From positions 350,641-384,192 of the forward strand of contig MU069661.1 of assembly GCA_002284615.2 (NCBI GenBank): a DNA stretch of 33,552 nucleotides, in the 5' to 3' direction. Below the pieces are notes generated by a model. It had not been told where the DNA came from and ran no database searches. It worked only from the letters and a program-made list of their open reading frames with translations. Source of the DNA: Dunaliella salina. Taxonomy: Eukaryota > Chlorophyta > Chlorophyceae > Chlamydomonadales > Dunaliellaceae. The translations under genes were made by a program, and so were the position numbers. Positions 2,531 through 32,910 of this stretch are shown here, piece after piece (position 1 is the first letter of the stretch; each line of letters opens with the position of its first letter).

Positions 2531-3283
2531 ACATATGTGTCCCTCAGGCTAGCCTCATTTGCGCCAGAGCAGTTGCCACCCCAATCTTATTGACAGGACT
2601 GGAGGGAAACAGGACGGGATCAGCTATGCAGGAAAGACGTCTGGATCAAGCCCTTAAGAAATTTGGTTGCTTTGCATGTATGTGTCCCCAGTGCCAGCGC
2701 TAGCCTCATTTCCGCCGGAGCAGTTGCCACCTCCTGATGGCCAGCCCTCGATTTCCAATCTTGTGGACAGGACTGGAGGGAAACAGGATGCATCGGGATC
2801 TTGGGATCAGTACCGCTTTTCCAGCGCATGTGTGGCTGTGAGAGTGCAAGCACCAAATACCACACATCCCTCTGCAAATTAGTCTACGATCAGTGCGTGT
2901 GATGCTGTTAGGATCATCATGATGTGGCCTTCTGACAGCACCACATGCGGAGCGCCTGTGTGATGACCCCAAGAATCCGGACAACATTGAATTCTAGGCC
3001 TCTAAAGAATCTCGCTGCAAAGGAAATGCAGAAAAAACACCCTGTGGTTGATGAAATGCAGAAATTCAGCCATGAAACTTCAACCTTCGAAATCCAGCGC
3101 TAGCAGATGCCAATTTTTGACCTCATTCTTTCCTATTTCTGGTTGTGCAGGATGCTAGCAGTGTCTATGGGGGTTACATATACAAAACTTTGGGAATAGG
3201 AACATGGTCCCATGCTGGAGTTGAATGCCATTTTGGGGTAATCTTAGGCTGGGAGAGTGATCTGAAGTCCTCCATTTTTGTCA

Positions 3284-3760
3284 ATTTTCTTGACAAAGAG
3301 GTTTTCAAACCCTCTTCAATTTGACGTTTCCTTCAACACTTACTTCAGCGCAAGCTGCCGTGACCAGGTCTTTGGGGCACACACAGACGCCCTCTCTGTG
3401 CGCTTCAATGGCTTCTCCTTTTGTGATCCCCCTCATGATGACGAACTTATGTTTAGGCTCTTGCGCCATGTAGTGCACNCCTCCCTCCAAACCGCAGAAC
3501 CAGTCGCCACCTTCATGCTCCTGCCCCACTGGAGAGGCTTCAGCTGCAACGCTTATATGAGCTGGCTTAACAATTACCCAGATCTTGCAAAAGTGCTCGC
3601 CCAATTTCCTGCCGGACATTTNCAAGTCCAACCACCCCAACACNGGTTTGGTACCCTTCCTTACCCTACCCCTCCTTCTTATCCCATGCAACTAATTGTT
3701 GCCTGGNATTTTACTGCCAGAGACGCGCTATTTAGCGCTAACAAAGGTTGGTNTCAACTC
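3284..3760 (+). pseudogene. PCIF1-like adenine-N6-methyltransferase-like domain, LINE B copy
   Basis: The open frame from 3278 (191 residues to its stop) contains VRFNGFSFCDPPHDDELMFR (residues 41-60) and FMLLPHWRG (79-87), then QPPQH and MQLIVAW. The pattern G-x-S-F-x-x-PP-x-x-x-ELM followed by F-x-x-x-P-x-WR matches what I know of the PCIF1 cap-adenosine methyltransferase fold, where the PP belongs to an NPPF catalytic motif. Here the motif reads DPPH, so catalysis is doubtful. The homologous domains in LINE A (8560-9110) and LINE C (30620-31110) lie immediately before RNase H too. Five undetermined bases interrupt the segment. The family call is by eye, without a profile search. Confidence 0.6.
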
Positions 3761-3959
3761 AAACAGAATGTCTCGGCTCACTGGCTACCCTTGCATCTTC
3801 CAAATTCTGCCACGCCATTGCACACTCACCAGTACCTTGCATCAAACACTTGAAAAAAGAANTTCCAATCANTTCCCCCGGACATCCATACCTGCTCCCA
3901 CAAGTGCCCTCAAGCAANGGCAGCTTTCCNCCNTGCCAACTACNAGAATGTTCACACTT

Positions 3960-4605
3960 AAAATTNAGGACTGAAGAGAAATCACGTACACAGATGGCAG
4001 TGTCATTAAACACCAAAATNATGACTCCCNACCACTCTCTGGTTCAGGCGTTTANAAACCAGGTAGGAACACTTCCCCATCCTCTCAAAACCTACAATTG
4101 CACATAAAACCCAATGGTCATGGGCCTACTTACATCATCACCAGAGCAGAATTTGCACCCATCCTTGTGGCACTCCAAAATGAGCAGAATGACATTGCCT
4201 CTGATAGTGCATCCTGCCTCTCCCAGATTNAAAACAAATTCTGAATCCGATGCGCATGAGGTACCACCTGCGTGCAGAGGTCATCCACGCTATATCGTAC
4301 ATATTGCAGCATTCTCCCCACCCTATCCATTTCTACAAAGTCAGAGCCCACTCTGGCATAAGACTATTCCTAGTAGTAGTATGCCTAGACGGCAACGAGG
4401 GGGCCGACGCCTGCGCTCACAAAACAGCCCTCACAAACACCTTGTACATTGTGCTTCCAGATGCCAGGGACCCATTCCACAATTTCTACTGGCTCTCATT
4501 GAAGACATCTCACGCACAAAATGATGGCATGCACAGCTCCCATGCTTTCCCAATCAGATATCTCACCAACCTAAATGACAAACTTAAAGAACACATGCGC
4601 TAAGT
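3960..4605 (+). pseudogene. RNase H domain, LINE B copy (broken)
   Basis: Across shifting frames one can read EITYTDGSVIKH (first catalytic Asp), ITRAEF (Glu), IASDSAS (second Asp) and NEGADACAH (final Asp), with FYKVRAHSGI before the last motif. This is the D-E-D-D core of retroelement RNase H1, which degrades the RNA strand of RNA-DNA hybrids during reverse transcription. Four undetermined bases and several frameshifts prevent one open frame. The order methyltransferase-like, RNase H, CCHC, RLE matches LINEs A and C. Confidence 0.75.
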
Positions 4606-4637
4606 GCACAAGCTTGGCTCTTCTGTTCCTCATTCTG

Positions 4638-4695
4638 ATTCCTTAATTGATGTAGGGAGAGTTTTTGCCTATGTAGTTTTTCTTTATCTTTTCTG
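4638..4695 (+). repeat. Dispersed LINE-G-type tail core inserted in LINE B
   Basis: The sequence TTAATTGATGTAGGGAGAG, then GCCTATGTAGTTTTTC, matches the cores at 18917-18988, 20641-20716, 24401-24470 and 25381-25452. The homologous point of LINE C (about 29770-29830 on the minus strand) lacks it: both copies share AAGCTTGGCT and ACCACTAC on either side. So it is an insertion in LINE B. Confidence 0.7.
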
Positions 4696-4879
4696 ATGCT
4701 TCTAGCTACCACTACAACAGATGGTAGAAGCTCTGCCCCGCCATCTGTTTCCCCAACCACCACAGCCAACCAGTCAACATCCAAGCTCACAGTCCAAAGT
4801 GTCGACTTGTTAACGAGGAAATCAGCAACTCTTTCTGGAAAAATCCTGAGATTACCCGTAAACAGCAAATTAATGTTAT

Positions 4880-5488
4880 AAGTCATGGAACAAATACAGT
4901 GTACACACACAAATGCCTTCGAATTCAACTTTTCTTCCACCTCTGTAAGATGCCCACTCTGTGGTGATGAAGGCAACATTGATCACGTACTCCTCAGGTG
5001 TACCAACTCCACAATGAGTGGGATACACACCAACAGGCACCATGCAGGCCTTAGTCTCTGTGTTAATGTCCTCAGTAAAGGCCGGTATGGCTCAACCCTT
5101 ATTGGCATGGATGGCTGTAGTAATGAGAGACTCCAGAAGCAGGGCATGCAAGTCCCTGAAAACATAACGCATAGCATCCCTGGTTGGATATTCCCTATAG
5201 CACTGGCTCCTTAGCCCGCCACCAAAACCGCCTGGATGCTATCTTTGTGCGCTCTATCCCAGGCCGACCTGTCCACCATGATCCCTCCCAGATCCCTGAT
5301 CGTGACAGGAACATCCACCTTGCTGAATTAAAATTCTGTCCCGACACCAACCCCTTCGTCACTTTGGAATGTGCAGCAGCTCAACATTCCCACACTGCAA
5401 CCAGACTTGAATCCTGCAGCTCAAGAAATTCAAACAGGAACAACAAAGCGACTCTACATATTATCTTAATTGGTGTGGCTGGCATTAT
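4880..5488 (+). pseudogene. CCHC knuckle and restriction-like endonuclease, LINE B copy (interrupted)
   Basis: One frame reads CPLCGDEGNIDHVLLRC at about 4950-5000, a C-x2-C-x7-H-x4-C motif typical of RLE-encoding LINEs. It is followed by NRHHAGLSLC, KGRYGS, then RLDAIFVR and HLAELKFCPDT at about 5230-5345. RxD and ExK form the PD-(D/E)xK nuclease core used to nick target DNA. Here Pro of RPD is replaced by Leu. The frame ends at GVAG, where LINE A is inserted; the remaining residues are at 11010-11165. Confidence 0.75.
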
Positions 5489-5780
5489 CCAAAGTCAAGT
5501 AAAATCTACGCTGGTACTTACCAGCGTGCATTAAGGAAAGACCCAACAGTTAGCACTGGCACTAACAGTGAGCCCCACCAAAGAAGGCTAGCTATGAGCA
5601 GCCTAGCTAATGAGGGTCCGACGGGTTGTCGGCCATCCGTCCGGCTGCGCGCCTCGCTGTCCTGTACGCAGCCCTCCCTGTAGCCCCCTCCCCCAAACCT
5701 CCGTTGCTTATGTTACTGAATTGGATGGCATTTTTGGTGTTGTGAATTTTTGTTAGGGACTTTACAGCGTGATAGTGGAG
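5489..5780 (-). promoter_or_regulatory. LINE A 3' UTR with terminal hairpin
   Basis: The 3' UTR is shared with LINE E (17891-18868) and the relic at 17736-17890. Near its end, 5508-5527 forms an 8-bp stem with a 4-base loop (ACGCTGGT and ACCAGCGT). About 20 bases follow before the junction with LINE B at 5488/5489. A conserved 3'-terminal stem-loop is the usual recognition site for the LINE's own RT, so that role is inferred here. AATGCCATCCAAT and AACATAAGCAA, further upstream, are shared with LINE D. Confidence 0.6.
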
Positions 5781-6400
5781 TTATTTGGCAGTTTTGTGAG
5801 CTTTGTCTTTGGTTAGGCCAAGTTTGCAGAGGGGATCAATAGTGTAGGGATTGAAGATAGTCCCTGCAACTCCAATTAGTATGGTATGTAGTGTGACTCT
5901 GTTATTGCGGAATGTGCCCCAAAGAGATCTTGTGTGTAAGCTTTCAATGGTGTATTTGCGCTGACTTTGGGCAGTGTGGAGAGTCTGTTCGAATTTGGTG
6001 TCAGAACAAATTTTGAGCTCAACGAGGTGGATATCTCTGTCTCTGGGATTCATATCCTGCAGGTGATGTGTGGAGTCTCTGCCTTCAAGGGGTCGAACTG
6101 TAATGCCATCAGGGCGAATGAGCTGTGTGTGTGGTGGTTGTCTGGATGGAAACAGCCAATTCGGAATATGTTGATGGACAGTATTTGGAATTTCCATGTC
6201 CAGGGAGCGTAACCTCTCTGTACATGCATCTATACAGACAATGTAAGATCCAAAGTCTCCTTTGCTTATTGCTTCACCACAGATGCTGAGTGCTTGATGG
6301 TGGCGATTGATATTCATCCTGTTTATCTGTGGGTGAGTGCATTTGAGTAGGGTATGGAGGTGCTATCAGGTGTACCACAAAGAGGGCAAAGAGATCGCCC
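5781..6400 (-). pseudogene. CCHC remnant and restriction-like endonuclease, LINE A copy
   Basis: The 178-residue frame at 6317-5781 reads NINRHHQALSICGEAISKGD, then LIRPDGITVRP and DRDIHLVELKICSDTKFEQT, then TLHTILIGVAGTIFNPY. RPD and VELK give the PD-(D/E)xK nuclease core, which nicks target DNA in RLE-type LINEs. The CCHC before it keeps CPLCG but a small indel destroys the His and last Cys, and the frame shifts there. This is the best preserved RLE in the window. It is expected to act in the nucleus as part of one LINE polyprotein. Confidence 0.8.
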
Positions 6401-6495
6401 AGGGTAGCCACTGAAGCGTCTGGCATGTTTGCCATTGTAAAGGGTGTCCATACGATACTTGTGGACATTGGTTTGTTCTTTGAGAGTCACAGCTT

Positions 6496-7380
6496 TCATG
6501 TGCCAGAAAGCATTACTATTTTTTGGATTGGCAGTAGGGTGAGAATTGGACATTCTGAGCAGGTTCTGCCAATCTTGGTAGCTATATGTGCTGAGGTTTG
6601 CTGTTCCCAATTTGTTGTTAGTTTTTCATGCATTACTTGTTTCAGTTTGTCCTGGAGGTTTGAAAGTGGCAAGTATTCTGTGTGAGAGCTATGTGTTGTG
6701 ACAGATGCAGCAAGCCAATAGAGATGGAAGAAAAAAGTTTCTGCCTGGTTGAGTGAGGTGTTAGCTTCATCAGGTAGCATAGCTGCTTGATGAGCAAGGG
6801 CATCTGCGCTTTCATTACCAAGGATCCCACAGTGTGATTTTACTTTGTAGAAGTGGACAGGGCCTTCTGAAGCATTTATGTAGGCTATGATTTCTTTGAG
6901 CAGTGGTGTATGTAAGTGCGTGGACATATCCATGGGTTTCAGAAGCTCGTTTTTAATCTGATTAAGTGCTGAAGAACTGTCAGTTGCAATTGAAGTGTGC
7001 CCTTGCTGTAGAGCTATCAGAATTGCAGCGAGCTCTGCTCTGTTAATAGTATAAGTTGGACCATGGCCCTTGGGATTTATTGTGCAGGTGACTGTTTCAG
7101 AGGAGGAGATGCCTGCCGGGATGAAAAAGGATGCTCCTGCTTGCTGTGTATTCTTGTTGTTGGACTTTATGACACTACCATCTGTATATGTTAGGTGTTG
7201 CCAACCTGGGATCTTTGGTTGCAGGGGTTGCAGGTATGGTTGTACGTTAGGTGTGATGGTTCTTTGTTGGCTGCAGACTTTGAAAATGTTGTGCGTGTCA
7301 TAATGCAAAAGTGCAAATTTCTCCCTCCATGTGCAGGGTGCTTTAGAAGAGAGGGTAGTCGTTGGAAAGTTGTTAAAGGC
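6496..7380 (-). pseudogene. RNase H domain, LINE A copy (catalytic residues intact)
   Basis: The 270-residue frame at 7308-6496 holds the full RNase H1 core: LTYTDGSVI (Asp43), NRAELAAI (Glu92), IATDSSS (Asp110), KSHCGILGNESADALAH (His159, Asp169). RNase H removes the RNA strand after cDNA synthesis. After the domain the frame continues as LPLSNLQDKLKQVMHEK, matching LINEs B and C, then shifts before the CCHC. Just upstream, 7309-7380 still reads as the linker in another frame. The repeat array at 7376-8545 separates this from the methyltransferase-like domain. Confidence 0.8.
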
Positions 7381-7696
7381 AGAAGCCCGTTTGATTCAAA
7401 CGAGAAGTCCGTTTGAACGCGTTTGAACGCACCGTTTGAAAGCGTTTGATTCAAAGTAATATTCAAATGGCGTTCAAACGTGATTCAAACGGGTTTCAAT
7501 GGTGTGCTTTTGAATTAAGCATGGCAGGACCCCGTTTGATTTAAACGCCATTCAAATACGTTCAATGTGTGCTCCCCGTTTGATTCAAACGCCATTCAAC
7601 CGTGTGCCCCGCCTGTTTCAAGCGTGGCCCGTTTGATTCAAACGCCATTCAAGCGTGCCCCGTTTGATTCAAACGCCATTCACATACATTCATTGC

Positions 7697-7815
7697 GTGT
7701 TTAATATTGTAAAAACGCAAGGGGGAAGATTCGAACTCGCGCAACCAAGTTCGCATGCACTTCTATAACTGTTCTCCACACAAGATGCGTGTATCGCTAA
7801 CGTTTCTTACAATAT
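7697..7815 (-). repeat. tRNA-like segment with short inverted ends inside the array
   Basis: On the minus strand GAGTTCGAATC is a good Pol III B box and TAGCGATACACG is a possible A box about 60 bases upstream. The unit is bracketed by ATTGTAAAAACG and its near mirror CGTTTCTTACAAT. I could not fold a full cloverleaf: the T stem pairs poorly. It is best read as a decayed tRNA-derived repeat, not a tRNA gene. Confidence 0.35.
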
Positions 7816-8013
7816 ATATAATGATATCAAAAAAATTTAATGATAATAACAAAGAATTTAAAAAATGATAACAATCAATGTTACCTTGTACACCATGTGT
7901 ACCTTGTACACATTTTAAAGCCTTGCAAAGCACATCCTTCTGATACCAATTGATTCAAAGGCAATTCAACTGGAATTCTAGGAGATTCAAATTACTTTCA
8001 AATAGGGTTCAAT

Positions 8014-8312
8014 GCCCCGCTTCCTCACACCCCTTGACCTTGCCCATCCTCATGGGAGCTCATGAAACACCATTGATTCAGATGGCAATCAAGCACAAAT
8101 CCTGCTGAATCAAATGGCACATTTGAATGCCGTTTGAATGCCGCTTGATTCAAAGTATTATTCAAATGGGATTCAACTTGAATTGAACGCTTCACTTCCT
8201 CATGTCCCTTGACCTTGCCCGTCCTCATGGGAGCTCATGAAACACAATTGATTCAAATGGCAATCAAGCAGAAATCCTGCTGAATCAAATGGCACATTTG
8301 AATGCCATGTGA
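8014..8312. repeat. Two direct copies of a 174-bp unit
   Basis: CCCTTGACCTTGCCC, CCTCATGGGAGCTCATGAAACAC and ATCCTGCTGAATCAAATGGC recur in the same order 174 bases apart (8032 and 8206 for the first). This is segmental duplication inside the array. Confidence 0.85.
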
Positions 8313-8543
8313 ATGCCCTTTGAATGCCGCTTCATTCAAGCGCATTTCAGCTGACAAATTTGTAGATTCAAGCGGCGGCTTGAAATGCATTTGATTCAAG
8401 CATATTTCAGCGGACAGGTTCAGAGATTCAAGCAGCAGCTTGAAACCCATTTGATTCAAACGCATTTCAACTGATAGGGTTGTAGATTCAAGCGGCGGCT
8501 TGAAATCCGTTTGATTCAAACGGGATTCAACTGCCTTCAAGCA
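8304..8543. repeat. 60-bp tandem repeat, about four copies
   Basis: AGATTCAAGC starts at 8364, 8424 and 8484, an exact 60-base period, with a degenerate copy before and a partial one after. Each unit contains a small inverted repeat, TTCAAGCGGCGGCTTGAA. On the minus strand it reads as a 20-residue periodic peptide, a consequence of the period being a multiple of three. Confidence 0.88.
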
Positions 8544-8559
8544 GGATTCATGTAAAACA

Positions 8560-9110
8560 TAACTTTCCGACGGTGTTTTGATTTTCTGCAAGCTGTTGAC
8601 TGCTTTTGTGGCACCAGTTTCCTACATGGATCTCCTGTTTTAAACCCTCAAGCCAATTTGGGTCATTCTGGAAGAGCTTTTGCTTTCCCTCATTGTTCCA
8701 AATGGCAATAAGTTGCATATGTTTCATATTTTTTTCAGGAGGAGCAAGAGGAGTTAGGTAGGCTTGGGGTGGCTGGAATGTTAGGCACCCTGAGGGGAAT
8801 TTGGCTAGGATTGTGGCATGGTCTGGGTAACATATGAACCAGCGCATGTATCCTTTTTTGGTCCATCCCATCTGGCTGGGGAGGAGCATGAAGGCGGCCG
8901 TTGGGGTAGTTGTGCTAGTGGTTGAAGACAGGGCATGCATGACAAGGTAGTAGATGAATTCGTCATCATATGGAGGATGGCAAAAGGAGAAGCCTGTGAA
9001 AATGGTTCCAAACGTATCAGTGTTGGCCTTAAAAATTCTTTCTCGAGCAAAAGGGCTCCAGTATGCTTTGAAGTGCATGTCATAATCAAGGGGGCTCGCA
9101 ACTTTTCCTT
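8560..9110 (-). pseudogene. PCIF1-like adenine-N6-methyltransferase-like domain, LINE A copy
   Basis: The 176-residue frame at 9078-8548 reads DTFGTIFTGFSFCHPPYDDE (residues 21-40), then AAFMLLPSQMGW (61-72), GYMRWFICYPD, LTFQPPQAYL and MQLIAIW. This aligns along its length with the LINE B and C domains. PPY-DDEF occupies the place of the catalytic NPPF/NPPY of PCIF1-type methyltransferases, with His in place of Asn, and FMLLP matches the strand after it. The domain would methylate adenine N6 if active; the substrate is unknown. The frame runs into the repeat array at its C-terminal side. The 5' neighbour is the linker at 9111-9464. Confidence 0.6.
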
Positions 9111-9464
9111 GGGTAACGAGCGCACAGCGCGTGAGAGCTGTAAGAATGTTAACCAGTGTGACAAAGAATTAAATTCTTTTATTTTTTGATTGTCTTTTCC
9201 GAGATGGGAAGTGTACCTGTGTAGAAGACCCATAATTTCTGTTGCTTCATTTTGAACAGGGGGCTGGATTGAAGTGTGTAGACCAGCTTGTCTGGCCGCA
9301 CTGTATGCTGGAAGCAGAATTTGAAGACGGTGAGGGATGATAATGCCTGTGCATTTCCCTTTGGTGTCATAAATGCATACAGCTTGAGTGGTGAATGCAA
9401 GAGGGATTTGTGGTTGTTCAGAATCCTTGTTAGATCCTGGTACCATGAGATCCATGTTTCTCAG
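9111..9464 (-). pseudogene. Linker upstream of the methyltransferase-like domain, LINE A
   Basis: The frame starting at 9455 reads QAVCIYDTKGKCTGIIIPHR and then AARQAGLHTSIQPPVQNEAT. The second part aligns with AAKRAGIHATIQPPVQDSAS in LINE C (31115-31909). No catalytic motif is visible. It joins the PHD region to the methyltransferase-like domain and is separated from each by a frameshift or stop. Confidence 0.6.
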
Positions 9465-10183
9465 CTAAATTTCACATCTTTTTGTTGGTATGATGTCCGT
9501 CTGGGGATTATTAGTCTTGAGGTCAAAGCGTGCTTTGTTGCGCATGGGGTGGCCCTGGGTTGTGAGCCAGTGCCTGTTTGGAGGCTGTGTGGCTCCCTCA
9601 AAACCTCGAAGAGTGAAGTTGTCTACAGTGTCGTCAGCAGTTGGTGAGTGTTGTTGTGGAGAAGGAAAGTTGTCTGTATGAGATTGCTCAAATCTGTGGA
9701 CATGCTCCTTGAAGTCTGGATGTTCAAGGAGCATAGGAGTTGGTTCCCAAGTGGGCTGCCAGGTGACTTTGACCATTTCTGTTTCTTCTGCTGTCTTGGT
9801 ACGCTGTCTTTTTTGAGGATTAGTAAGTTGAGCGCAAGAAGGGCATTCCCAAGTGGACATTTGCTCTGCCTGGATGCGCTGTGATGGGGTGCAGAGGTTG
9901 TGGTGAGTAGGCGCTTCCAGTGATACGTGCGCTGGCATGTGTCACATTGAGGCATGTCAATGAAGTTATGTTCTTCATGTTCCATGTTGGTGGGAGTCCA
10001 GCAGATCTGGCAGGTATCATCTTCTATTTGGCTTCTGGGGAAGGGCTCAAGATGAGCTACCATGAGGCCTGTTTTTCGAAGGATTGTCAGAGCCCACCTT
10101 TCAATTATCATTGGCTCCCAACGAATGAGGTATTGTGATTGCGAGTGTGCGGGTGGGGTATTTTTTCTTTTCCTGCTTAGCAT
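9465..10183 (-). pseudogene. PHD-finger region, LINE A only
   Basis: The frame at 10183-9623 reads DDTCQICWTPTN (Cys58, Cys61), then MPQCDTCQRTYHWKRLL (Cys80, Cys83, His88, Arg91). The next frame (9938-9465) supplies STWECPSCAQL (Cys32, Cys35). Together this is the Cys4-His-Cys3 spacing of a PHD finger, except that the sixth ligand is Arg (codon CGC, one step from TGC). PHD fingers typically read histone-tail marks, so a chromatin-targeting role for the LINE protein is inferred. A frameshift lies within the domain. LINE C has no equivalent in its linker, and copy B starts downstream. Confidence 0.6.
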
Positions 10184-10190
10184 TTTCCAG

Positions 10191-11009
10191 TTAAGGATGG
10201 CTTGGATTTGAATTCGTACTTAAAGATGGTCTGGCAGAAGGACCCTGGAACTGTGCATGCCTCTTTTTATGGTCTCTCAAGTTTTTAGTACTGATGGAGT
10301 TTGTGTGCATTGTTGGTGAACTGACCCCTGTGACTTCATTGGGGCAGGTAAGGAATCTTGTGGAGTTGCGCTTAAGCTTTTTTGTGATCTGGGTTTCTGG
10401 AATACTTTGCATTTGATGAGGGCTTGGCAAGGCTGAACTCGGTCGCTTGTTGCTGTGACTGTCTTGAGTGGATGGAACAGGTAAATTTTGTTGAGAGCTC
10501 CAGGACCAACCTAAGGGTGTAAGCTGGGTGAGTAGGTGTAAAGAGTTGCGGTTTATTTGTCTGAGTTCTGGAGCTTTGTCGGGGTCGGCATCAGTGTTTG
10601 TAAAAGCGTGGTCAACAGTGGATAGGCTGAGATTATTGCAGTTTGCAAGAGACGCAAGCCTGTTGAGAGTGATAGTCTGCTTCTTCTTGATGGTGTGATG
10701 GTAGGAACCAAGAGCTTCGGCATTTAAGACATGTGTGTGCTCATGTGATAGAATAGAGAAGAAACTGGAAATGCCAGCTTCCATGATAGAATGTACGATG
10801 CAATTGATCAGTCTTGGGATTTCTCGGGTTTTTGGTGTCAGAGGATGTTTGCTATAGGTTGAAAAGTGTCAGTGAAGGGAAGTTGGCCTTGATAAGTCCG
10901 CTTGCATGTATACTGCTGCATTGCCGTGGTCGTACGTTGTATTTAAGCATTTGATTGAGATACTTGGGAGCTTGACATTAGGGCCCTAGCAGACCATTGG
11001 CTATGTTAT
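10191..11009 (-). pseudogene. RT C-terminal remnant and basic linker, LINE A 5' end
   Basis: The 197-residue frame at 10784-10191 contains TITLNRLASLANC, matching CKIALHRLAALANL in LINE C, then a Ser/Lys/Arg-rich stretch (TKKLKRNSTR, LRDHKKRHAQ) of nuclear-localisation character. Upstream, in broken frames to about 10990, LKYNVRPRQ and INCIVHSIMEAGIS match LNYNMRARQ and NTCIMQPLLNMGIS at the end of the RT thumb in LINE C. The catalytic RT core is missing, which marks the 5' truncation. Confidence 0.65.
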
Positions 11010-11165
11010 GTAAGTGAGCAGACACTGTTTACAATGAATACACAATCAAACCTTTTATGAATCTGGGCCTTACCAAAGAAAATGCTAAATCACTAGCAAC
11101 TGAGCTTAGCCGAAAATTGACATCCATCAATAAGACCAGACATGCTCTTCATTTTCAGGGGGCTT
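11010..11165 (+). pseudogene. C-terminal end of LINE B RLE, resumed after LINE A
   Basis: The sequence reads DTVYNEYTIKPFMNLGLTKE, then NAKSLATELSRKLTSINKTR and HALHFQG. This continues directly the RLE that stops at GVAG at 5488. The pattern YTI-x-P-x-x-x-LGLTK matches the end of LINE A RLE (6317-5781). It shows that LINE A is nested within LINE B. Past about 11165 the G-rich sequence gives way to a minisatellite. Confidence 0.85.
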
Positions 11166-17890: not shown

Positions 17891-18218
17891 GAGGAGTTCT
17901 ATCAATTGAACATATTCAGAAACGGCAAGTAACAGAGTCGCGATACACATCATACTAATTGGAGTTGCTGGAAATGAAATGACAGTGTTTACAACCCATA
18001 CACTTTTGATCCCCTCTTCAAGCCAGGCCCAACCAGAGACAAAGCCCACAAGACTGCAACTCAACTCTACAATTATGCTGCCTTAGACCTGAACAAAAAT
18101 CAAAAACACCAAACATACCATTCAATTTAGCAACCCAAGTAATGGGAGGCTGGGGAAGGGGGGCTGCGGGATGGGCTGCTGGAGAGCGAGGTGTGCAACT
18201 GGACGGAAGGCCAACACC

Positions 18219-18324
<106 letters not shown>

Positions 18325-18658
18325 NNNNNNNNNNNNNNNNNNNNNNNNNNNNNNNNNNNNNNNNNNNNNNNNNNNNNNNNNNNNNNNNNNNNNNNNNNNN
18401 NNNNNNNNNNNNNNNNNNNNNNNNNNNNNNNNNNNNNNNNNNNNNNNNNNNNNNNNNNNNNNNNNNNNNNNNNNNNNNNNNNNNNNNNNNNNNNNNNNNN
18501 NNNNNNNNNNNNNNNNNNNNNNNNNNNNNNNNNNNNNNNNNNNNNNNNNNNNNNNNNNNNNNNNNNNNNNNNNNNNNNNNNNNNNNNNNNNNNNNNNNNN
18601 NNNNNNNNNNNNNNNNNNNNNNNNNNNNNNNNNNNNNNNNNNNNNNNNNNNNNNNNNN
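18325..18658. other. Assembly gap (334 N)
   Basis: A run of 334 undetermined bases follows the (TTG)n tract. The right edge resumes with GTTG, so the gap probably hides more of the same repeat. Confidence 0.99.
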
Positions 18659-18871
18659 GTTGTTTACACTGCCCAAGGAAGTAGCTACTCCCCAGGAGGG
18701 CCTCTGCTAGTTTAATCAGAAAGCTCAGGAAGAAAAAGGAAGGGAATGAAGGAAGTCCCGGGCTCTCACTGCACGCACTTTCACTGTTAGTGTCAGTGCT
18801 GACTGTTGGGTTCTTCCTCAATGCTCGCTGGTCGTGTCCAGTCTGGACTTAAAATTCTCTGGGATGGAGAT

Positions 18872-20640: not shown

Positions 20641-20757
20641 GGCTAGAAAGAAAAGAAAAGAAAAGCTACGTAGGCAGAGAAACCCATCCTACATCAATTA
20701 AGGAAAAGGGGCCACATAGGTGCGCAGGCCGTATGACCCCCCCACCACAAAGGCTAC
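20641..20757 (-). repeat. Dispersed LINE-G-type 3'-tail repeat inside LINE family 2
   Basis: On the minus strand: TTTGTGGTGGGGGGGTCATA, GTGGCCCCTTTTCCTTAATT, TCTCTGCCTACGTAG, then a TTTTC-rich run. The order and spacing match 18872-18988. It splits the N-terminal region of the LINE from its RT. Confidence 0.7.
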
Positions 20758-21830
20758 GTTGGCGCCAACTCCTGATAAGATCGAATTGTCGGATGCAGCT
20801 GCAGTGTATCCTACAGTCTGTCATCACATGCTAAGCTTAAGTCCTAGGGCCTCCCCTGGTTTTGGTGCAACGGCTGCCAAACCCTTTCTTAAGTGTGCTG
20901 AAAGGAGAGCCCCGGCAGTAAATGGTAGAGGTAAAGACAGGATCAACGTTGTGGCGCCATATGGTGCTCGCTTGTTTGCTGCCGTGATGGATAAGGCTGA
21001 AATTCCTACATGTTGGAAAGCAGCAAAGCTTACTCCCCCACATAAAAAGGGCTCTCTGCTAGACCCAGCAAGCTATCGCATGCTTGCTGTGAGCGACATC
21101 ATGTATGGAATGCACGTTAATGTACTTAAGGATGTTGTTACAAGGTGGTGCAGGGATAACAACAAAATCCCAGATACACAAAATGTTTTTTACCCAGGCC
21201 GTAACACCCTGTGGCCAATATATTTTTTGAGTCATCTGCAGCATGCGGCACAGATCAGCACTTTCTAAGCGCCCTCCTTCCTCACCGAGGTTGCATGCAG
21301 CCTTCATTGATTTCAAGCAAGCTTATGGTACAATGCCCGGGGATGCTTTATGGACTCATTTTTAAAGCATTCGCATGCCATCTTGCCTCCTGAATATTTT
21401 GAGAAACATTTGTAACAATGATGAATAGGTGTTGGTGGATGGATGTAAGAGAGCTCATGTTCATTGAGCTCAACTAGGGATTAAGCAAGCCTGTCCATTG
21501 TCTCCTCTGCTATTTCCCTTTTATATTAATGATGTTGGCAGCTTGGCATAGCACGTTAGCGGTGCAGCTACTGGTGCTGGGGATTTCCTAATAACACATA
21601 GGTTGTGTGCGGATGACCTTTGCCTCACTGCCAATCATCCCAACGAGCTTCAGTACATGCTGGATAGGTTACATGGGTTTGCACAGAGGAAAGGATTAAT
21701 CATCAACGTGTTGAAGTCTGAGGTTGTGCACTTTGATTCAAAAGGAAATAGTGTTCCTGTTTTTACGCTAGGTGGAGCACAGCTTGTGCGCACAGAGTCA
21801 TTTTAGTATTTGGGTATGCTACAAAACAAA
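20758..21830 (+). pseudogene. Reverse transcriptase core of LINE family 2
   Basis: In the 182-residue frame at 20720-21268 one sees SPGF (motif 0), CWKAAKLTPPHKKGS (motif 1), YRMLAVSDIM (motif 2) and FYPGRNT (2a). Frame changes then give AAFIDFKQAYGTMPGDALW (motif 3, first catalytic Asp, about 21300), GIKQACPLSPLLFPFYINDV (motif 4, about 21480), LCADDLCLTANHPNELQYML (motif 5 with the Asp-Asp pair, 21603), GLIINVLKSEVVHF (motif 6) and YLGML (motif 7, preceded by a TAG stop). All three catalytic aspartates remain, but at least two frameshifts and stops break the gene. RT copies the LINE RNA at the nicked target. Confidence 0.85.
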
Positions 21831-25380: not shown

Positions 25381-25643
25381 CAAAGAAAATTAAAAGAAAA
25401 GAAAAACTACATAGGCAAAGAAACTCTCCCTACATCAATCAAGGAAAAGGTGGCTCATTGGCTCAAAAGAGCCGTGAGCCCCTTTCACCACAAGGTATGA
25501 AAAGGAGAAATCTATTGTGGATCTGGAGGGTTACTAGAAGCACCTGGCTCTAGAACCTGGCTGTGGGAAGTACTCTTGTTTTCAATAGCACGGCGTGTGG
25601 AGACTAGTTTGCGGGCATATTGAACAGAATAGGCATGAAGTTG

Positions 25644-26420
25644 TTAAGCAGGCTTCATGGCACGCTGGTGATCCAATCCTAGTTGTTTGAATTGCTTCAG
25701 GGTACGCTCGGCGTAAATAGTTCCACCTACACCCAGGAGAATAGGGTGAATTGTAACGGCTTTAGCGTTGATAAGTTTACAAAGGTCTGCATGTTGCTGC
25801 TTTGCTGCGTCCGACTGATGCTCTGGCCTTGTGTCTTCACAGAACTTGATTTCTATTAGGTGCACATGACGTCCATTTGCATAAGTTCATGGGGTTGCCT
25901 CAGGGATAGTTCTGGTGGTCCTCTGTGCGGAGCTGCGCAAAGCGTGATGGGAGTGGGTAGGAGAAACATCGTTTGAAGTATGATTGGCATTAAAAGGGGT
26001 GATCGAAACAGCACCTGGTCGACTGGAGTTGAGCCTATTTCTGTTTGGAAGGTTGCGAGGGAAGAAGTAGGCAGGTAAAGTTCTGTTTCAGGCATGTGTA
26101 GGGAGTTGGAGATTTTGTTGAGCAAGCTTAAAATCGCTTCCTTTGTCTGTGTATACAAGGCCTGCCCCTACAGGGCATTTGCTGAGGGCTTTTGTAATCA
26201 TTCTGCCTGCAATGTTATGGCGTTCAGTTCTCATGTTGGAGATGATGTGGTTTTGGCAGCCTGAGAGCATGTGTAGTGCGCTGCCCAAATGATGGCAGCC
26301 TGGGAGGAGGCAAGATGGATCAGTTGACCTTTTAAAACGTGCTGCATGTTTTTGGTTGTCGAGGATGCCTGTGCGGTACTGCAGGATGGTCCGCTTCATG
26401 GGTACAGAAATGTTGGGCAC
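25644..26420 (-). pseudogene. CCHC and restriction-like endonuclease, LINE G
   Basis: The 110-residue frame at 26420-26088 has CLLPGCHHLGSALHMLSGC (C-x4-C-x7-H-x4-C), HNIAGRMITKALSKCPVGAG and LVYTDKGSDFKLAQQN. After a frameshift, the 73-residue frame at 25865-25644 has HLIEIKFCEDTRPE, AVTIHPILLGVGGTIYAERT and LKQFKQLGLDHQRA. The ExK of the nuclease is intact. The RPD upstream is altered to RPG in a shifted frame. The frame ends in a stop where LINE F continues QLHAHSVQYA. Confidence 0.75.
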
Positions 26421-26459
26421 ATTTCTGAAGGCATTGCTGATTTTTTTTATCTTCTTGTG

Positions 26460-27336
26460 TTAATCAGTTTTTATATTAAGAGTAGTAACCTGTTTTGGCA
26501 TTGGCATATCCAAGCTTGTGCTTAGAATGCATGTGGGATGTGAGAGCACCTTGAAGATTGGGGAGATAGGTGAGGTTGTGGGTGGTGGTGGACCCGCAGA
26601 TGTGCCTGCAGCATGTGCTTTTTCCTCCTTGGCTAACCAGAAAACAAGTGTAAATGGATTTCCACCTAAATGGATTTCCACCAGGGCCTGCACCAGGGAT
26701 CTCGGTGTCTGCCAAACAGTTCTGGGCTTGCTTTGCTGATGCTTTGCAATGGCATCTGCACATTCATGTCCAGCGATGCCAGCATGGGACTTCACTTTGT
26801 AAATTCGAATTTTGGTATGGAAGTCCCTAATGAGCGTTGACATCTCCTTGGATATGCCACAGATGTCTTTCAGGATAGAGAAGCTGTTTGCGTATTTGAT
26901 TGAAAGAGGTGAGGCTGTCTGACGCAATATCGACATATTTGGTGATAATAGCAGCAGCAATTGCTGCTAATTCAGCTCTAATGATGGTTTTAGTAATCCC
27001 ACCACCGTTTGGTTCTACAAAATTCTTGCAGTCAGTGGACAGGCAGTAGATGCCTGCTCCAATTTCTTGCTTACTGTTATGGACAAGGCAGCTGCCATCT
27101 GCGTATGCCCATGTCCTCCAGTCAGCATCTTTGAGAGTTAGGAGAGTACTGGATTGGCTGGGCACCAAGTCTGTACCTTGGATACTCATGTGTGAATTCC
27201 TGTGCTGCTTGGAGACGTGCTGTTTGTCAAGTGGGAGGTGTTCCAGTTTATTGAAACCTGGCATGTGAGGATGCATGGGATTTAGGACAGGGTGGCTGCT
27301 GACACTCTTGAGCTTCCACTCTGTGGCTTCTTCCAA
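26460..27336 (-). pseudogene. RNase H domain, LINE G
   Basis: The 169-residue frame at 27336-26827 has WAYADGS (Asp80), IIRAELAAI (Glu122) and IASDS (Asp140). The overlapping frame 26960-26460 continues with KVKSHAGIAGHECADAIAKH (His59, Asp69). All catalytic residues of RNase H1 remain, split by one frameshift near 26900. A proline-rich stretch (SAGPPPPTTSPIS) separates it from the CCHC. The N-terminal 70 residues have no recognisable domain. Confidence 0.8.
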
Positions 27337-28342: not shown

Positions 28343-29083
28343 GGGTGCGTTCGCATTGGCGAGAGAAAAAATAAAGAAAATCCGTGTCCTAAAGAATTTT
28401 TTCAGTGTGTTTTGGTGGTCGGTGTTCGCATGGGCGGTATTCCAGAGCTCTGTTGCTTGGTGGTCCGCGTTCGCATTGGGGGTAGCAGTTTTCTCATGTT
28501 TGAGGGTCAAATTGCTGCAAAGCCTTCGTTGCAGTCCTTCATGCTAAGTGAATTTTAATTCATGGAAGCAAGCAAGTGCTGCTGCTTGGCTGTGCCCAGG
28601 GAAGCACGCGGGATGGACACCAGGCAGGCCCCCTGCACCAGCCATGGACAGGCTGGGGACCATTTGTGGCATGGGCATGTTGCCCAGCGGTGTCATGGGC
28701 TTGCTGGTGCCCATCTGCCTCTCCATCCGCTCCCCGCGGGATGAGCAGGTTCCCTGAAAGCCCGCCAGGCATGCCGCTGCTCGCGGGCATGTTGTCCAGC
28801 TGCGTCGCTGGGAAGGAGGGGGCCAGACTCCTAGGGCCACTCCGTCGCGCTCGGTCAACCACGGTCAGAACGTGGTGGGAAGACCCCGCTGTTTTTAAGA
28901 ATTTTTTCTCGTTTTCAGTATTTTTTCTACAGCTAGGGAGTGGAGCTATAGGAAAAATACTTTTTTTCAGAAAATTTTCTAAAAAAATTATCCCCCATGC
29001 GAACGCGGACCACCCAAAATAATGCCATCAGGCAACCAGTATTCGCGAGAAAAGAGAAAAACCTCGCCAATGCGAACGCACCC
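28343..29083. mobile_element. PIF/Harbinger-type MITE (741 bp) inserted in LINE C
   Basis: Perfect 21-base terminal inverted repeats begin GGGTGCGTTCGCATTGGCGA at 28343 and end with the mirror at 29083. A TTA target duplication flanks both ends (28340-28342 and 29084-29086), typical of PIF/Harbinger. Leaving out the element and one TTA joins the LINE C frame as KTRSL/RNPYRNTI, so the empty site is inferred directly. A second inverted pair lies inside (GGTGGTCCGCGTTCGCAT near 28468 and its mirror near 29005). There is no transposase; a GC-rich block fills the centre. Confidence 0.9.
28550..28862 (-). pseudogene. GC-rich captured segment inside the MITE
   Basis: This block is clearly richer in GC than its AT-rich surroundings. 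On the minus strand two overlapping frames give LAPSFPATQLDNMPASSGMP and, shifted, MTPLGNMPMPQMVPSLSMAG, a Met/Pro/Gly-rich low-complexity peptide. It looks like a fragment of a host gene picked up by the element, as in Pack-MITEs. I do not recognise the parent gene, and the coding frame is uncertain. Confidence 0.4.
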
Positions 29084-29560
29084 TTAAGCTGCGTGTTTTA
29101 AGTCTAGTTATGGTGTGGGAATGTTGAGTCCGTGCACGTTCCAGAGTGATGAAGGGATTTGTGTCAGGGCAGAATTTAAGTTCGACAAGGTAAATATCTC
29201 TATCATTTGGGGGGATCTTGGTAGGACCAAGGTGGGCTTGTCTGCCTGGGATGGGGCGCACAAAAAGAGCATCAGGGCGGCTTTGGTGCCGAGCAGGTGA
29301 GGCAATGTCATTTGGGAAAACCCAATCTAAAATAGCTCGAGAGGTGTTTTCAGGGATTTGTATGCCTTCAGAAGTCTGTCACAATCGCAGCCATCCATGC
29401 TAATGAGGAATGAGCCGTACCGGCCTTTACTCAGGGCTTCTACACAGAGACTAAGGGCCGCATGGTGTCTGTTGGTGTGCATCCCACTCATTGTTGGGTT
29501 GGTACACCTAAGCAGAATGTGATAAATGCTGTCCGTATTTGCACAGAGTGGGCATCTATC
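29084..29560 (-). pseudogene. LINE C CCHC knuckle and RLE, first part
   Basis: Near 29555-29505 the minus strand reads CPLCANTDSIYHILLRC, an intact C-x2-C-x7-H-x4-C motif, then TNRHHAALSLCVEALSKGRY. Towards 29270-29160 it reads RPDALFVRPIPG and DRDIYLVELKFCPDTNPF, an intact RPD...ELK pair of the PD-(D/E)xK nuclease. A deletion or frameshift near 29350-29400 separates the parts. The 77-residue frame at 29261-29028 runs into the MITE end as LKTRSL. The RLE would nick target DNA for reverse transcription. Confidence 0.8.
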
Positions 29561-29918
29561 AGAACTGGGAAAATTGAAGTTGGAGGCATGACTCTGTGTG
29601 CACAGTGTATCTGTTCAATACTTCATAAGGTTTATTTGCTGTTTAAGGGTTATCTTTGGGCTTTTCCAGAAGGAGTTGCTGACCTCCTTGTTTGCAAGTT
29701 GAGGGGTTGGGTTGTAAGCTTCAGTGTGGGCATTGGTGGTGGGTGGTGTGGCATCGTTAAGCTTCTGCCATCTCTGGTAGTGGTATCCAGAGGTGTCAGC
29801 GGAGCCAAGCTTGTGTTTCTTGTGCATGTGTGATTAAGTTTGTCGCTCAGGTTGGTGAGATAGTGCATCGGAAGCGTGTGGGAGCGGTGCATGTCATCAT
29901 TTTGTGTGGAAGAGGTCT
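29561..29918 (-). pseudogene. LINE C connector between RNase H and CCHC
   Basis: The 90-residue frame at 29922-29650 reads LPMHYLTNLSDKLNHTCTRN, then TPLDTTTRDGRSLTM and a Pro-rich stretch with LQTRRSATPSGKA. It aligns with the same region of LINE B (4550-4830), where a dispersed repeat is inserted. No catalytic motif is seen. Confidence 0.55.
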
Positions 29919-30917
29919 TCAATTAAAGCCAATAGAAATTGTGGAAAGGGTCCCTGGCATCTGGAGGGCTGCGGTGCGAGCGCAAGCATTGGCCCCCTCA
30001 TTTCCTATGATGCCGGAGTGGGCTTTGACTTTGTAAAAATGGATAGGGTGAGGGGAGTGCTCTAATATGGTTGATATTGCATGAATGAGCTCNGCATGTA
30101 GGTGATACCTCATGCGCATCGGGTTAAGGGTTTGATTAGAAATCTGAAAATGGCAGGATGCACTATCAATGGCAATCTCGGTTTGTTCGTGTTGGAGTGC
30201 CACAGGGATACCCACAAGTTCTGCTCTAGTGATGGTATTGGTTGGCCCATGGCCATTGGGTTTTATGTGCAGTTGCAAGTGTTGGGAGGGTGCAGCAGTG
30301 TCACTTCCTGGTTTGTAAACACCTGAACCGGAAAGGGGTGGGGAGTCGTCATCTTTGTGTTTAATCACACTGCCATCAGTGTAGGTGATTTCCCTCCAGT
30401 CCTTGACTTTAGATGTGAACATCTTTCTGAAGTTGGCAGGGGTGAATTCTGCCCTTTCCTGAGGGCACTTGTGTGAGCAGCTAGAGGTGTCAGGGGAGAG
30501 TGATTGAAATTCCTGTTTCCAAGTATTTGATGCTAGGTGTTGGTGGGTACGCAGCGGCGTGATGGTATCTGGAGTATCCGAAGGTAGCCAACAAGCTTCT
30601 GGTGTAACTTGCTTTACATCTTGCTGGAGGGACTGGAACCAGTCTTTGTTTGCGGTATCTAGTATTTCTCTGGCGTTAAGGTTCCACACAACGATGAGTT
30701 GCATAGGATAGGAAGGTGGAGTAGGATTGGTGATGGTATCAAACCAGTGTTGTGGTGCTTGGAATTGGATTTTCCTTGCAGGGAATTTGGCAAGAACTTT
30801 TGCAGTATCTGGGTATTGTTTCAGCCAGCTCATATGCGCGTTACAGCTGAAGCCTCTCCAGTGGGGCTGGAGCATGAAGGTGGCAACTGGATCTGTGGAA
30901 TGGAGGGAGGAGTGCAC
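29919..30917 (-). pseudogene. Methyltransferase-like C-terminal half fused to RNase H, one open frame, LINE C
   Basis: A single 332-residue frame begins in the methyltransferase-like domain (PVATFMLQPHWRGFSCNAHM, residues 10-29; QFQAPQHWFD 51-60; MQLIVVWNL 72-80). It passes through a linker and enters RNase H: EITYTDGSV (Asp181), TRAELVGI (Glu233), IAIDSAS (Asp251), KAHSGIIGNEGANACA (His300, Asn310). The fourth catalytic Asp is Asn here, so this copy is probably inactive. The uninterrupted frame proves that both domains belong to one polyprotein. The N-terminal part of the methyltransferase-like domain is in another frame at 30918-31110. Confidence 0.8.
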
Positions 30918-31110
30918 TGCATGGCGTAGGAGTTTGAATTCCCCCTTCCTTCGTGTGGAGGATGGTAGAAGGAGAAGCCAGTGTAGCGCACAGAGAGGGC
31001 ATCTGTGTGCGCCCCAAAGACCTGGTCTCGGTATTATGTGCTGAAATAAGTGTTGTAGGGATTTTCAAAATCAAGAGGGCTGGAAAACCTCTCTGCTGAG
31101 ACCATGCACC
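30918..31110 (-). pseudogene. Methyltransferase-like N-terminal half, LINE C
   Basis: The minus strand reads AERFSSPLDFENPYNTYFS, then DQVFGAHTDALSVRYTGFSF followed by YHPPHEG. The motif position that is DPPH in LINE B and HPPY in LINE A is HPPH here. A small deletion after it causes the frame change relative to 30917-29919. Confidence 0.6.
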
Positions 31111-31114
31111 ATTT

Positions 31115-31909
31115 TTACAGGGCTGATCGGATGTGGGAAGGAATATACATGTTTGAATTGAAAACTTTTTTTTTCTGGGCCAAAAGATGTTTCTGTTGAG
31201 CCTTTTGGTGTGAGAGCAGACCCATGACTTCAGATGCTGAATCCTGGACAGGAGGCTGAATGGTGGCATGGATGCCTGCTCTTTTGGCTGCTTCAAAGAA
31301 AGAGGTTTTTCTCAATGCTGAGCGTGTGCGTTTGCTGGGTGGCCCTTCTGCAGTAGTATCTTCAAGTTGTATGGCAGGAGCCAGAGTATCCAGACTTGCA
31401 GTGGATCCGTCTGCAGAGGGGTGGAGTGCTTGTGTGGGAACGCTGTTGAGTTTAGAATTGGAACGAGTTCTTCTGCTGAGTGGCTCCTCCAGTGATTGCA
31501 TTGCCATGACATTTGCAGCTTGTTGTGTTCCAGGACAATTTATGGGTGTAGGAGGATTGGCTGTGCGTCTGAGGCGGCGTCTGGTGTGTACATGGGTGTA
31601 GTAAGATGTGGAGCGAGGCTGTGGCGGTGGCACTGCTTGAGTGCACTCAACACGTGTGGGGGATGAAGCTGGGTTGGGGGCTTGCTCGTTGGAAGACCTG
31701 GGTGTGGGAAGGCTGTTCCCCACCCATGCTAGTGTTGGAAAGGCCGCTGACATGTGTATTGTTGATACGATGGTAAACTGGAGGGTATTCGGTTCAGTGC
31801 TTTTGTAGGCAATGATCTTTTGGATTGAGAATGTTTTCAAGTCTTGTTGTGGGGCAAGGTTGGCAAGAGCTGCCAGCCTGTGAAGTGCAATTTTACATTT
31901 GTTGTTCAC
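31115..31909 (-). pseudogene. LINE C basic linker region
   Basis: The 264-residue frame has CKIALHRLAALANLAPQQDL near its start, then low-complexity Pro/Ser/Thr sequence, four Arg-rich clusters (THVHTRRRLRRTA, LSRRTRSNSK, PPSKRTRSALRKT) resembling nuclear-localisation signals, and FFEAAKRAGIHATIQPPVQD near its end. It aligns at both ends with the LINE A linker, but has no PHD finger. No enzyme motif is visible. Confidence 0.65.
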
Positions 31910-31972
31910 CTCGGGGTGTTTAGCCTGAAATTTAGAAATTGAGATGATGTGAGTTTTGTAACAAGATGTAAG

Positions 31973-32910
31973 CTAATGTAGCCCGCTGATTCCCATATTC
32001 AGCAGAGGTTGCATAATGCAGGTGTTGAGAGTAAGGAGGTTGTGAGGAGGTGGTTTGTGCAAGGTTAGGGCTTCACAAACGTGCTCTAATTCCTCCTTGA
32101 ACATACTAGTGCCATTTTTCGTGAGATGGAGCTTGCTGGAATGCACGCTAGCCAGCTGGCGGGCGCGCATGTTATAGTTGAGCTGACGTTTAATGTGCAG
32201 ATTTGTTCCTTTTCGTTTGGTGAGGTAGGTTTCAGATAAAGTATTTAGGTTTTCTATCTGTTTAGTTAGGAGGTTGAGGCTGACTGTGCGGTGTCTTGCT
32301 GAGGGGTCCCCAAGGCTGGAAGAGAGAGCAAAAGCCTGGCGTCTATGGTATTCTACACAGATTGAAGTGCGTCCAAGTCCAAAATTATCATGATCTTCGC
32401 GGATCATTGCTGCAGCTGTGCTTTTCCAGAGTTTGTGTTTGTGTTTGACCATTCTGTCTGTCATGGTGTCCCAGATGTTATTGTCAGTAGGGGTGCAGGG
32501 AGTTACTGCAAGAGAGTATGCAAGGCTAGGGATAACGGCTGTGCGGACAATGTTGAGCACTTGGCGTGGGGATGCATAGGATGCGTCAAGATTACCTAGC
32601 TTACTTTTGAGGTTAAATGTCATACGCTGAATCTGGTGCTTCCAGTGAAGGTCCATTGTCATTTGAATTCTCAGATAGAGGAAGGGCTCACTTGAAGCAA
32701 GGAACTGGGCCTTCTGCCCTTGGATTCTATTTTCCCCTGAAGCCTTTGATGGAGAGCTTGAGATGAAGTCACCCCATCGTGATCTTTTCTTGAACGTCTT
32801 AGCAGAATGCCGGCAGCTTTGGTTTTGCTGCCTGAAATAATGAGTGCGGCCCAGTCAGAGTAGAGGGTGAGTTTCCTGGCTTGTGCTTTCAAATGCATGC
32901 CATTTTTCAA
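31973..32910 (-). pseudogene. Reverse transcriptase C-terminal part, LINE C
   Basis: The 79-residue frame at 32910-32671 contains KAQARKLTLYSDWAALIISG and SKTKAAGIL (RT motif 6, normally G-x-x-x-N-x-x-K). After a frameshift, FLYLRIQMTMDLHWKHQIQR corresponds to motif 7 with YLG changed to YLR. The 229-residue frame continues with the thumb (LGNLDASYASPRQVLNIVRT, AVIPSLAYSLAV). The catalytic palm (YxDD) is not in the window. Its order, RT then linker, methyltransferase-like, RNase H and RLE, defines family 1. Confidence 0.75.

Follow-up and report, generated by a model that had tools for sequence, protein, structure and literature searches.

LINEs (long interspersed nuclear elements) of the Dualen/RandI type encode both an apurinic/apyrimidinic (AP) endonuclease (APE) and a PD-(D/E)XK, or restriction-like, endonuclease (RLE), according to the excerpts compared of PMC3636483 and PMC4640811, the latter of which also gives them an RNase H; an excerpt of PMC3747384 lists RandI elements from green algae, with short-repeat, non-poly(A) tails. 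The PCIF1 family, which includes the cap-specific adenosine N6-methyltransferase PCIF1/CAPAM, is described in an excerpt of PMC8868631 as eukaryote-only and NPPF-bearing. Here we analysed a window of 33,552 nucleotides from Dunaliella salina (C226:350641-384192, within a genome of 1403 contigs and 285 Mb) and found that it contains decayed copies of abundant LINEs that resemble Dualen/RandI, as those excerpts portray them, in APE, RLE, RNase H and short-repeat tails, and the element is assigned to this type by its content of the three enzyme domains. Between reverse transcriptase (RT) and RNase H, these LINEs carry a PHD-type zinc finger and a domain homologous to PCIF1 that is under purifying selection, neither of which is mentioned in the three excerpts on Dualen and RandI. 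Thus, a PCIF1-like domain is embedded in a LINE protein, unlike in PCIF1/CAPAM.

Kojima and Fujiwara reportedly described Dualen in 2005 as consisting of APE, RT, RNase H, a cysteine protease and RLE; Pfam scans of seven pieces of L009 and eight of L070, two relatives of the window copies, detected no peptidase. A PHD-type finger is also said to occur, with an esterase, in ORF1 of CR1-like LINEs (Kapitonov and Jurka, in 2003), which reportedly differ from the present element in clade, in the open reading frame (ORF) concerned and in having an esterase instead of a PCIF1-like domain. Likewise, retrotransposons reported by de Mendoza in 2018 are said to have captured a methyltransferase-family domain, but these are reportedly long terminal repeat (LTR) elements with 5-cytosine DNA methyltransferases. 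Our literature search, incomplete and at title and abstract level, found no publication naming the combination of PCIF1, PHD and a non-LTR retrotransposon; the 2005 Dualen paper, or the 2016 paper by Iyer, Zhang and Aravind on adenine methylases in eukaryotes, might mention these domains.

Three related LINE families are represented in the window, where every copy is decayed and none complete, and the anatomy of the element was therefore taken from relatives in the same genome. In the better-kept of these, the domain order is AP endonuclease, RT, PHD-type finger, PCIF1-like domain, RNase H and RLE. In family 1, L009 shows an RT spread over two ORFs (Pfam RVT_1, 41.7 and 37.5 bits) with a FADD motif, followed by a PHD-like finger, PCIF1_WW (34.5 bits) and RNase H (50.5 bits); L002, which belongs to the same copy, continues with CPLC-x7-H-x4-C and then RPDG...ELKFC, read by motif as CCHC plus RLE, and L029, just upstream of L009, ends in SRIDDILLS...KHSDHLPL, by motif the C-terminus of an AP endonuclease, with no Pfam match for this fragment. 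The family-2 relative L070, with its domains spread over several ORFs, contains Exo_endo_phos (23.3 bits, E 6.3e-5, just below the cut-off of 24.5; SRIDDIL and SDH motifs by eye), an 843-aa RT ORF (RVT_1, 88.4 bits), PCIF1_WW (40.3 bits), RNase_H (35.7 bits) and then the RLE motifs CPLC..H..C and RPD..ELK. Family 3 has open frames of 998 aa in L066 and 890 aa in L067 that join a PHD-like finger, recognised by motif, to PCIF1_WW (39.1 and 39.4 bits), the L067 frame extending into RNase H (38.9 bits). No Pfam family for RLE was matched in the L009 or L070 scans, and this domain is identified by motif.

When genome searches were compared by eye, eight contigs (C868, C743, C196, C422, C438, C813, C21 and C168) had an APE match at a distance of 4.6-5.3 kb from a PCIF1-like match on the same strand, and PHD and PCIF1-like matches occurred together at 13 places. 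Family-1 copies terminate near a common 3' point in TTTAC-like short repeats and have different flanks, as expected for LINEs. Families 1 and 2 also have in common a terminal GTAGACTTT motif (L009 3' end; L070 8260-8310), followed by TTTAC- or TTATC-type tails, and it is possible that this motif is a 3'-end recognition signal.

A methyltransferase-like domain related to PCIF1 had been proposed for family 1, between RT and RNase H/RLE, by an earlier inspection of the letters alone (hereafter, the sequence-only reading), and profile searches and structure prediction both bore this out. Copy A of the window scores 15.4 bits against Pfam PCIF1_WW (E 0.015, frame 8548-9168; cut-off 31.1) and copy B 26.7 bits (E 4.7e-6; 3266-3853, plus strand), and relatives exceed the cut-off with 34.5, 35.6, 39.1, 39.4, 42.3, 35.8 and 40.3 bits. 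A protein search of the genome with the copy A domain gave at least 151 matches; 150 of 4474 first-look candidates were scored, so that counts are lower bounds. In the search with Pfam PCIF1_WW, 150 of 150 scored genomic places passed the curated cut-off, with 35.9-47.3 bits, as against none in 14 control genomes. An alignment profile searched against the PDB had PCIF1 as its sole match (E 6.8e-6), and, of the 22 members of the alignment, 17 hit PCIF1_WW with an E of 0.01 or better and one hits another family. In Foldseek, the first six matches of the predicted fold are all PCIF1 (E 4.8e-6 to 3.9e-5), the next being RlmJ (E 0.056). Neither outcome that the sequence-only reading had named as refuting, the lack of any methyltransferase match or of a Rossmann-like core, was obtained, although the fold model is weak. 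The PCIF1 relationship is therefore real, and the naming of a PCIF1-like domain is supported. These structural matches begin at PCIF1 residue 416-422 and span approximately 416-673; the helical cap-groove domain of PCIF1/CAPAM lies outside the match and was not recognised in the LINE protein. Nor did we see a WW domain: none was detected at E 0.1 in L066 (998 aa, RT thumb through PCIF1-like domain) or L067, or in the scanned pieces of L009 and L070, the stretch upstream of APE lying outside the scans.

The domain is present in all three LINE families, which differ from one another in this region at 32-48% identity. We also asked whether the domain had recently been acquired from a PCIF1 of the host and found no obvious donor, all scored matches being similarly low: a 99-aa piece of human PCIF1 found genome matches of 27-35% identity, the best at 36.6 bits, and among the 150 scored of 557 candidates no cellular PCIF1 stood out as a better match, though introns could hide one. 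Two protein searches retrieved four and 18 relatives, 19 of them distinct, among them ENA and JGI proteins. One is a cluster labelled MMETSP1126, which we take to be a Dunaliella tertiolecta transcriptome, and seven EukProt relatives are labelled Pelagomonas calceolata (P0013, P0016, P0019, P0023-P0026), labels that might reflect cross-contamination or true relatives, in which case this LINE would occur in a second lineage.

At the active site, the alignment sets CHPPY of the LINE domain against ANPPF of PCIF1. The catalytic Asn of such enzymes serves to hold the amino group of adenine. We counted this motif in 64 distinct copies, of which 56 belong to family 1, three to family 2 and five to family 3, leaving out nine repeats (L001-L003, L008, L030-L033 and L064) and matches without motif coverage; the count is weighted towards family 1, whose members were selected for their similarity to copy A. 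The Asn position is His in 59 copies and Asn in one, the first Pro is kept in 62, the second is Pro in 26 and hence not conserved, and the Phe position is occupied by Tyr (46), His (16) or Cys (2). The motif is thus HP-[P/A/I/D/T]-[Y/H], or HPxY/H, instead of the NPPF of PCIF1/CAPAM, and among database relatives covering it a pattern search found HP in P0011, P0012, P0014, P0016, P0017, P0019 and P0024, and RP in P0021. The ASPL motif is kept and the FG motif mostly kept. By eye, the RT, RNase H and endonuclease motifs look canonical; the element has thus preserved standard catalytic sites in those domains and a consistently altered one in the PCIF1-like domain. The sequence-only reading had described a G-x-S-F-x-x-PP-x-x-x-E signature and based N6 methylation on NPPF; the domain was found, while the double Pro did not hold and NPPF gave way to the His form. 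Its broader picture, a retroelement combining a chromatin reader with a methyltransferase module, survives as a PHD-type finger next to a PCIF1-related methyltransferase fold, with the adenosine methyltransferase put in doubt by the altered motif and with cap modification, self-marking and target choice, the roles that it suggested, as conceivable ones.

To examine selection, we compared shared and singleton variants in 40 family-1 copies on L009 coordinates, defining as shared any variant in at least four copies and leaving out same-copy repeats (L001, L002, L003, L008 and L030-L033), L029 and the divergent L027. In the PCIF1-like region, singletons comprised 354 nonsynonymous (N) and 107 synonymous (S) changes as compared with 33 N and 34 S among shared variants (index 0.29, Fisher p 6e-6), indicating that this domain is under purifying selection. 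RLE gave a similar index (0.30, p 0.016), whereas the shift was not significant for RNase H (0.48, p 0.19) or for two linkers (0.49, p 0.15; 0.94, p 1.0), and the RT thumb gave 0.94 on seven shared variants. Between subfamilies, the PCIF1-like regions of L009 and L027 have a nonsynonymous rate (dN) of 0.17 and a synonymous rate (dS) of 1.3, near saturation, for a dN/dS of 0.13; in family 3, the L066-L067 pair has dN/dS of 0.31 in the PCIF1-like domain and 0.45 in the PHD finger.

The explanation that we favour, to which we give a probability of roughly 0.5, is that a Dualen/RandI-type LINE took up the PHD-type finger and the PCIF1-family-derived domain between RT and RNase H, and that both have become old, fixed parts of the element, spreading with it in three diverged families. 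The architecture, the homology to PCIF1 and the purifying selection on the PCIF1-like domain are shown. This domain would have retained an S-adenosylmethionine (SAM)- and/or RNA-binding surface and would serve to hold RNA or to regulate, or would perform altered chemistry, acting in cis on the RNA/protein particle of the element itself; the PHD finger would tether this particle to histone tails at the target. We prefer such a role to that of an ordinary adenosine N6 methylase acting next to the cap, since a conserved His stands in for the catalytic Asn whereas ASPL, and mostly FG, are kept; with NPPF replaced and no WW domain found, adenosine N6 methyltransferase activity seems the less probable option, behind a SAM/RNA-binding module put to new use or a change of chemistry.

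Several observations weigh against this explanation. Conservation of the SAM site is inferred from sequence motifs, its sole basis, and the conserved His could still allow methyl transfer. Confidence in the fold model is low (predicted local distance difference test, pLDDT, 59.5; predicted template modelling score, pTM, 0.49), and little weight is therefore put on its long rmsd values. Pfam PHD scores fall below the cut-off, the best being 17.1 as against 24 bits, with no match to Pfam PHD in L066 or L070, and the selection signal for the finger is thin, with shared variants of 2 N and 2 S. Finally, other family-1 pairs give dN/dS of 0.27 to 1.59 (L009-L014) in the PCIF1-like region, L009-L028 gives 1.17 in the PHD finger and L069-L021 gives 0.83 in family-3 RNase H; such high pairwise values are as copies decaying after insertion would give.

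The alternative that survives best, tenable at somewhat worse than even odds, concerns the finger, which could be a structural or a nucleic-acid- or protein-binding zinc finger instead of a histone reader. All eight of its ligands, however, together with the Trp that precedes the final pair, are invariant in a four-row alignment (35-91% identity to the first row), and the rows that Foldseek listed for it are almost throughout PHD-type. The sequence-only reading had assigned a Cys4-His-Cys3 pattern to copy A as an addition of that copy. The pattern is indeed present there, but incomplete, with a frameshift and Arg as the sixth ligand; complete sets occur in relatives L009, L004, L005, L022, L028, L066 and L067, and a loose pattern search gave ten segments of which seven are complete. 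A finger confined to copy A was accordingly rejected, as it also occurs in other copies of family 1, in family 3 and in L070, the single family-2 copy read through this region, with one ligand changed.

It is unlikely, in our estimation, that the PCIF1-like domain is an active nucleic-acid methyltransferase, modifying adenosine N6 at the LINE RNA 5' end, or target DNA, with His substituting for Asn without loss of chemistry. The strong purifying selection, a nearest homologue that is a cap-adjacent m6Am (N6,2'-O-dimethyladenosine) methylase and the retention of ASPL and mostly FG would fit such an enzyme, but the Asn-to-His change (59/64), the replacement of Phe by Tyr or His (62/64) and the poorly kept second Pro do not, nor do the lack of a WW domain in the scanned stretch and a PCIF1 match that excludes the helical cap-groove domain. 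Moreover, the human PCIF1 changes N553A and F556G are said to lower activity in an excerpt of PMC11550742. A more elaborate version, to which we give still less credence, would have the element encode an RNA-modifying or cap-reading enzyme, the PCIF1-derived domain acting in cis on the 5' end of LINE RNA and the PHD finger steering integration to marked chromatin, thus uniting template marking and target choice in one protein.

A further possibility, that a fragment of a host gene was captured as the PCIF1-like stretch and hitch-hikes without function, is very improbable: many copies, A, B and C among them, are decayed, but the domain is present in three families 32-48% identical, no stronger host PCIF1 match stands out, and the selection tests contradict this idea, which we rejected on those grounds. 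Most improbable of all is a chance similarity with no methyltransferase-type fold, since the low single-copy score and low model confidence are countered by the agreement, in both directions, of Pfam, PDB profile, Foldseek and human PCIF1 query, by the 17 of 22 alignment members, and by the 150 of 150 genomic places and no control genome over the cut-off, for which we rejected it.

The features of the window are listed in the table. In copy A, the PCIF1-like domain sits between the RT remains and RNase H/RLE, as the sequence-only reading had it; the span 8560..10183 that it gave encloses both domains, its low edge adjoining the repeat-rich insertion, and the two-endonuclease type of the element was absent from that reading. 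With tblastn, the PCIF1-like domain of copy A is 86% identical to that of L009 over 8614-9198 and 66% over 9087-9323 in the other frame, and the PHD finger 87 and 90% in two frames. The parts flanking the insertion stand adjacent in L009, and the 3' end of copy A is common to other copies. The insertion is made up of TTTGATTCAAACG-like units, among them a 60-bp tandem array (8334-8519) and a direct pair of 164 bp, and resembles a mobile or satellite unit that is non-coding. At 11018-11149, the 5'-truncated end of copy A adjoins the 3' portion of a further related LINE, which is on the plus strand (tblastn); this suggests nested or neighbouring insertions. The PHD finger seems to have been lost from copy C through an internal deletion.

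Features of the LINE copies in the window (positions from its first nucleotide)
Feature	Position	Strand	Remarks
Copy A, overall (family 1)	~5491-11022	minus	5' truncation in RT region; split by repeat-rich insertion
Copy A, PCIF1-like domain	8614..9323	minus	two frames, one frameshift near 9087-9198; motif CHPPYDDE; sequence GFSFCHPPYDDE
Copy A, PHD-type zinc finger	9783..10066	minus	frameshift ~9905; sixth ligand Cys to Arg (YHWKRLL, read in ORF)
Copy A, end of RT region	10812..11022	minus	tblastn with L009 RT
Copy A, RNase H region	6622..7326	minus	Pfam RNase_H 54.1 bits for 6496-7395; tblastn
Copy A, CCHC, RLE and 3' end with short-repeat tail	5491..6486	minus	tblastn, 88% identity over 5724-6356
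Repeat-rich insertion splitting copy A between PCIF1-like domain and RNase H	7378..8551	.	tandem and dispersed TTTGATTCAAACG-type repeats
Copy B, overall (family 2)	3281-5483	plus	begins inside PCIF1-like domain
Copy B, PCIF1-like domain	3281..3772	plus	motif CDPPHDDE; Pfam PCIF1_WW and tblastn
Copy B, RNase H and RLE	3960..5483	plus	tblastn
Copy C, overall (family 2)	29082-32910	minus	without PHD region
Copy C, PCIF1-like domain	30615..31297	minus	two frames; motif YHPPHE; tblastn; no PHD seen
Copy C, RT (thumb) region	32066..32910	minus	tblastn; no Pfam match for 31973-32854
Copy C, RNase H and RLE	29082..30518	minus	Pfam RNase_H 33.3 bits; tblastn
Family-3 copy, RNase H and RLE only	25584..27120	minus	tblastn

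Smaller LINE pieces are also present in the window. ORFs at 20720-21268 (plus strand; SYRMLAVS-type) and at L070 8585-9001 resemble, by eye, another RT lineage, with no RT match in Pfam for these pieces. A long trinucleotide run (18120-18710; polyV/C/L or polyQ/T/N reading) lies beside a stretch of Ns. The Pfam scan of the remaining window ORFs gave nothing useful, and an NCBIfam scan gave a single weak RNase H match, below its cut-off.

If confirmed, the element would illustrate the recruitment of the PCIF1 family by a LINE, which has maintained it under selection with its catalytic residue altered. This makes two questions testable: whether a PCIF1-type fold can work without its Asn, and whether a LINE may select itself, or choose its target, through recognition of the RNA 5' end or the reading of chromatin.
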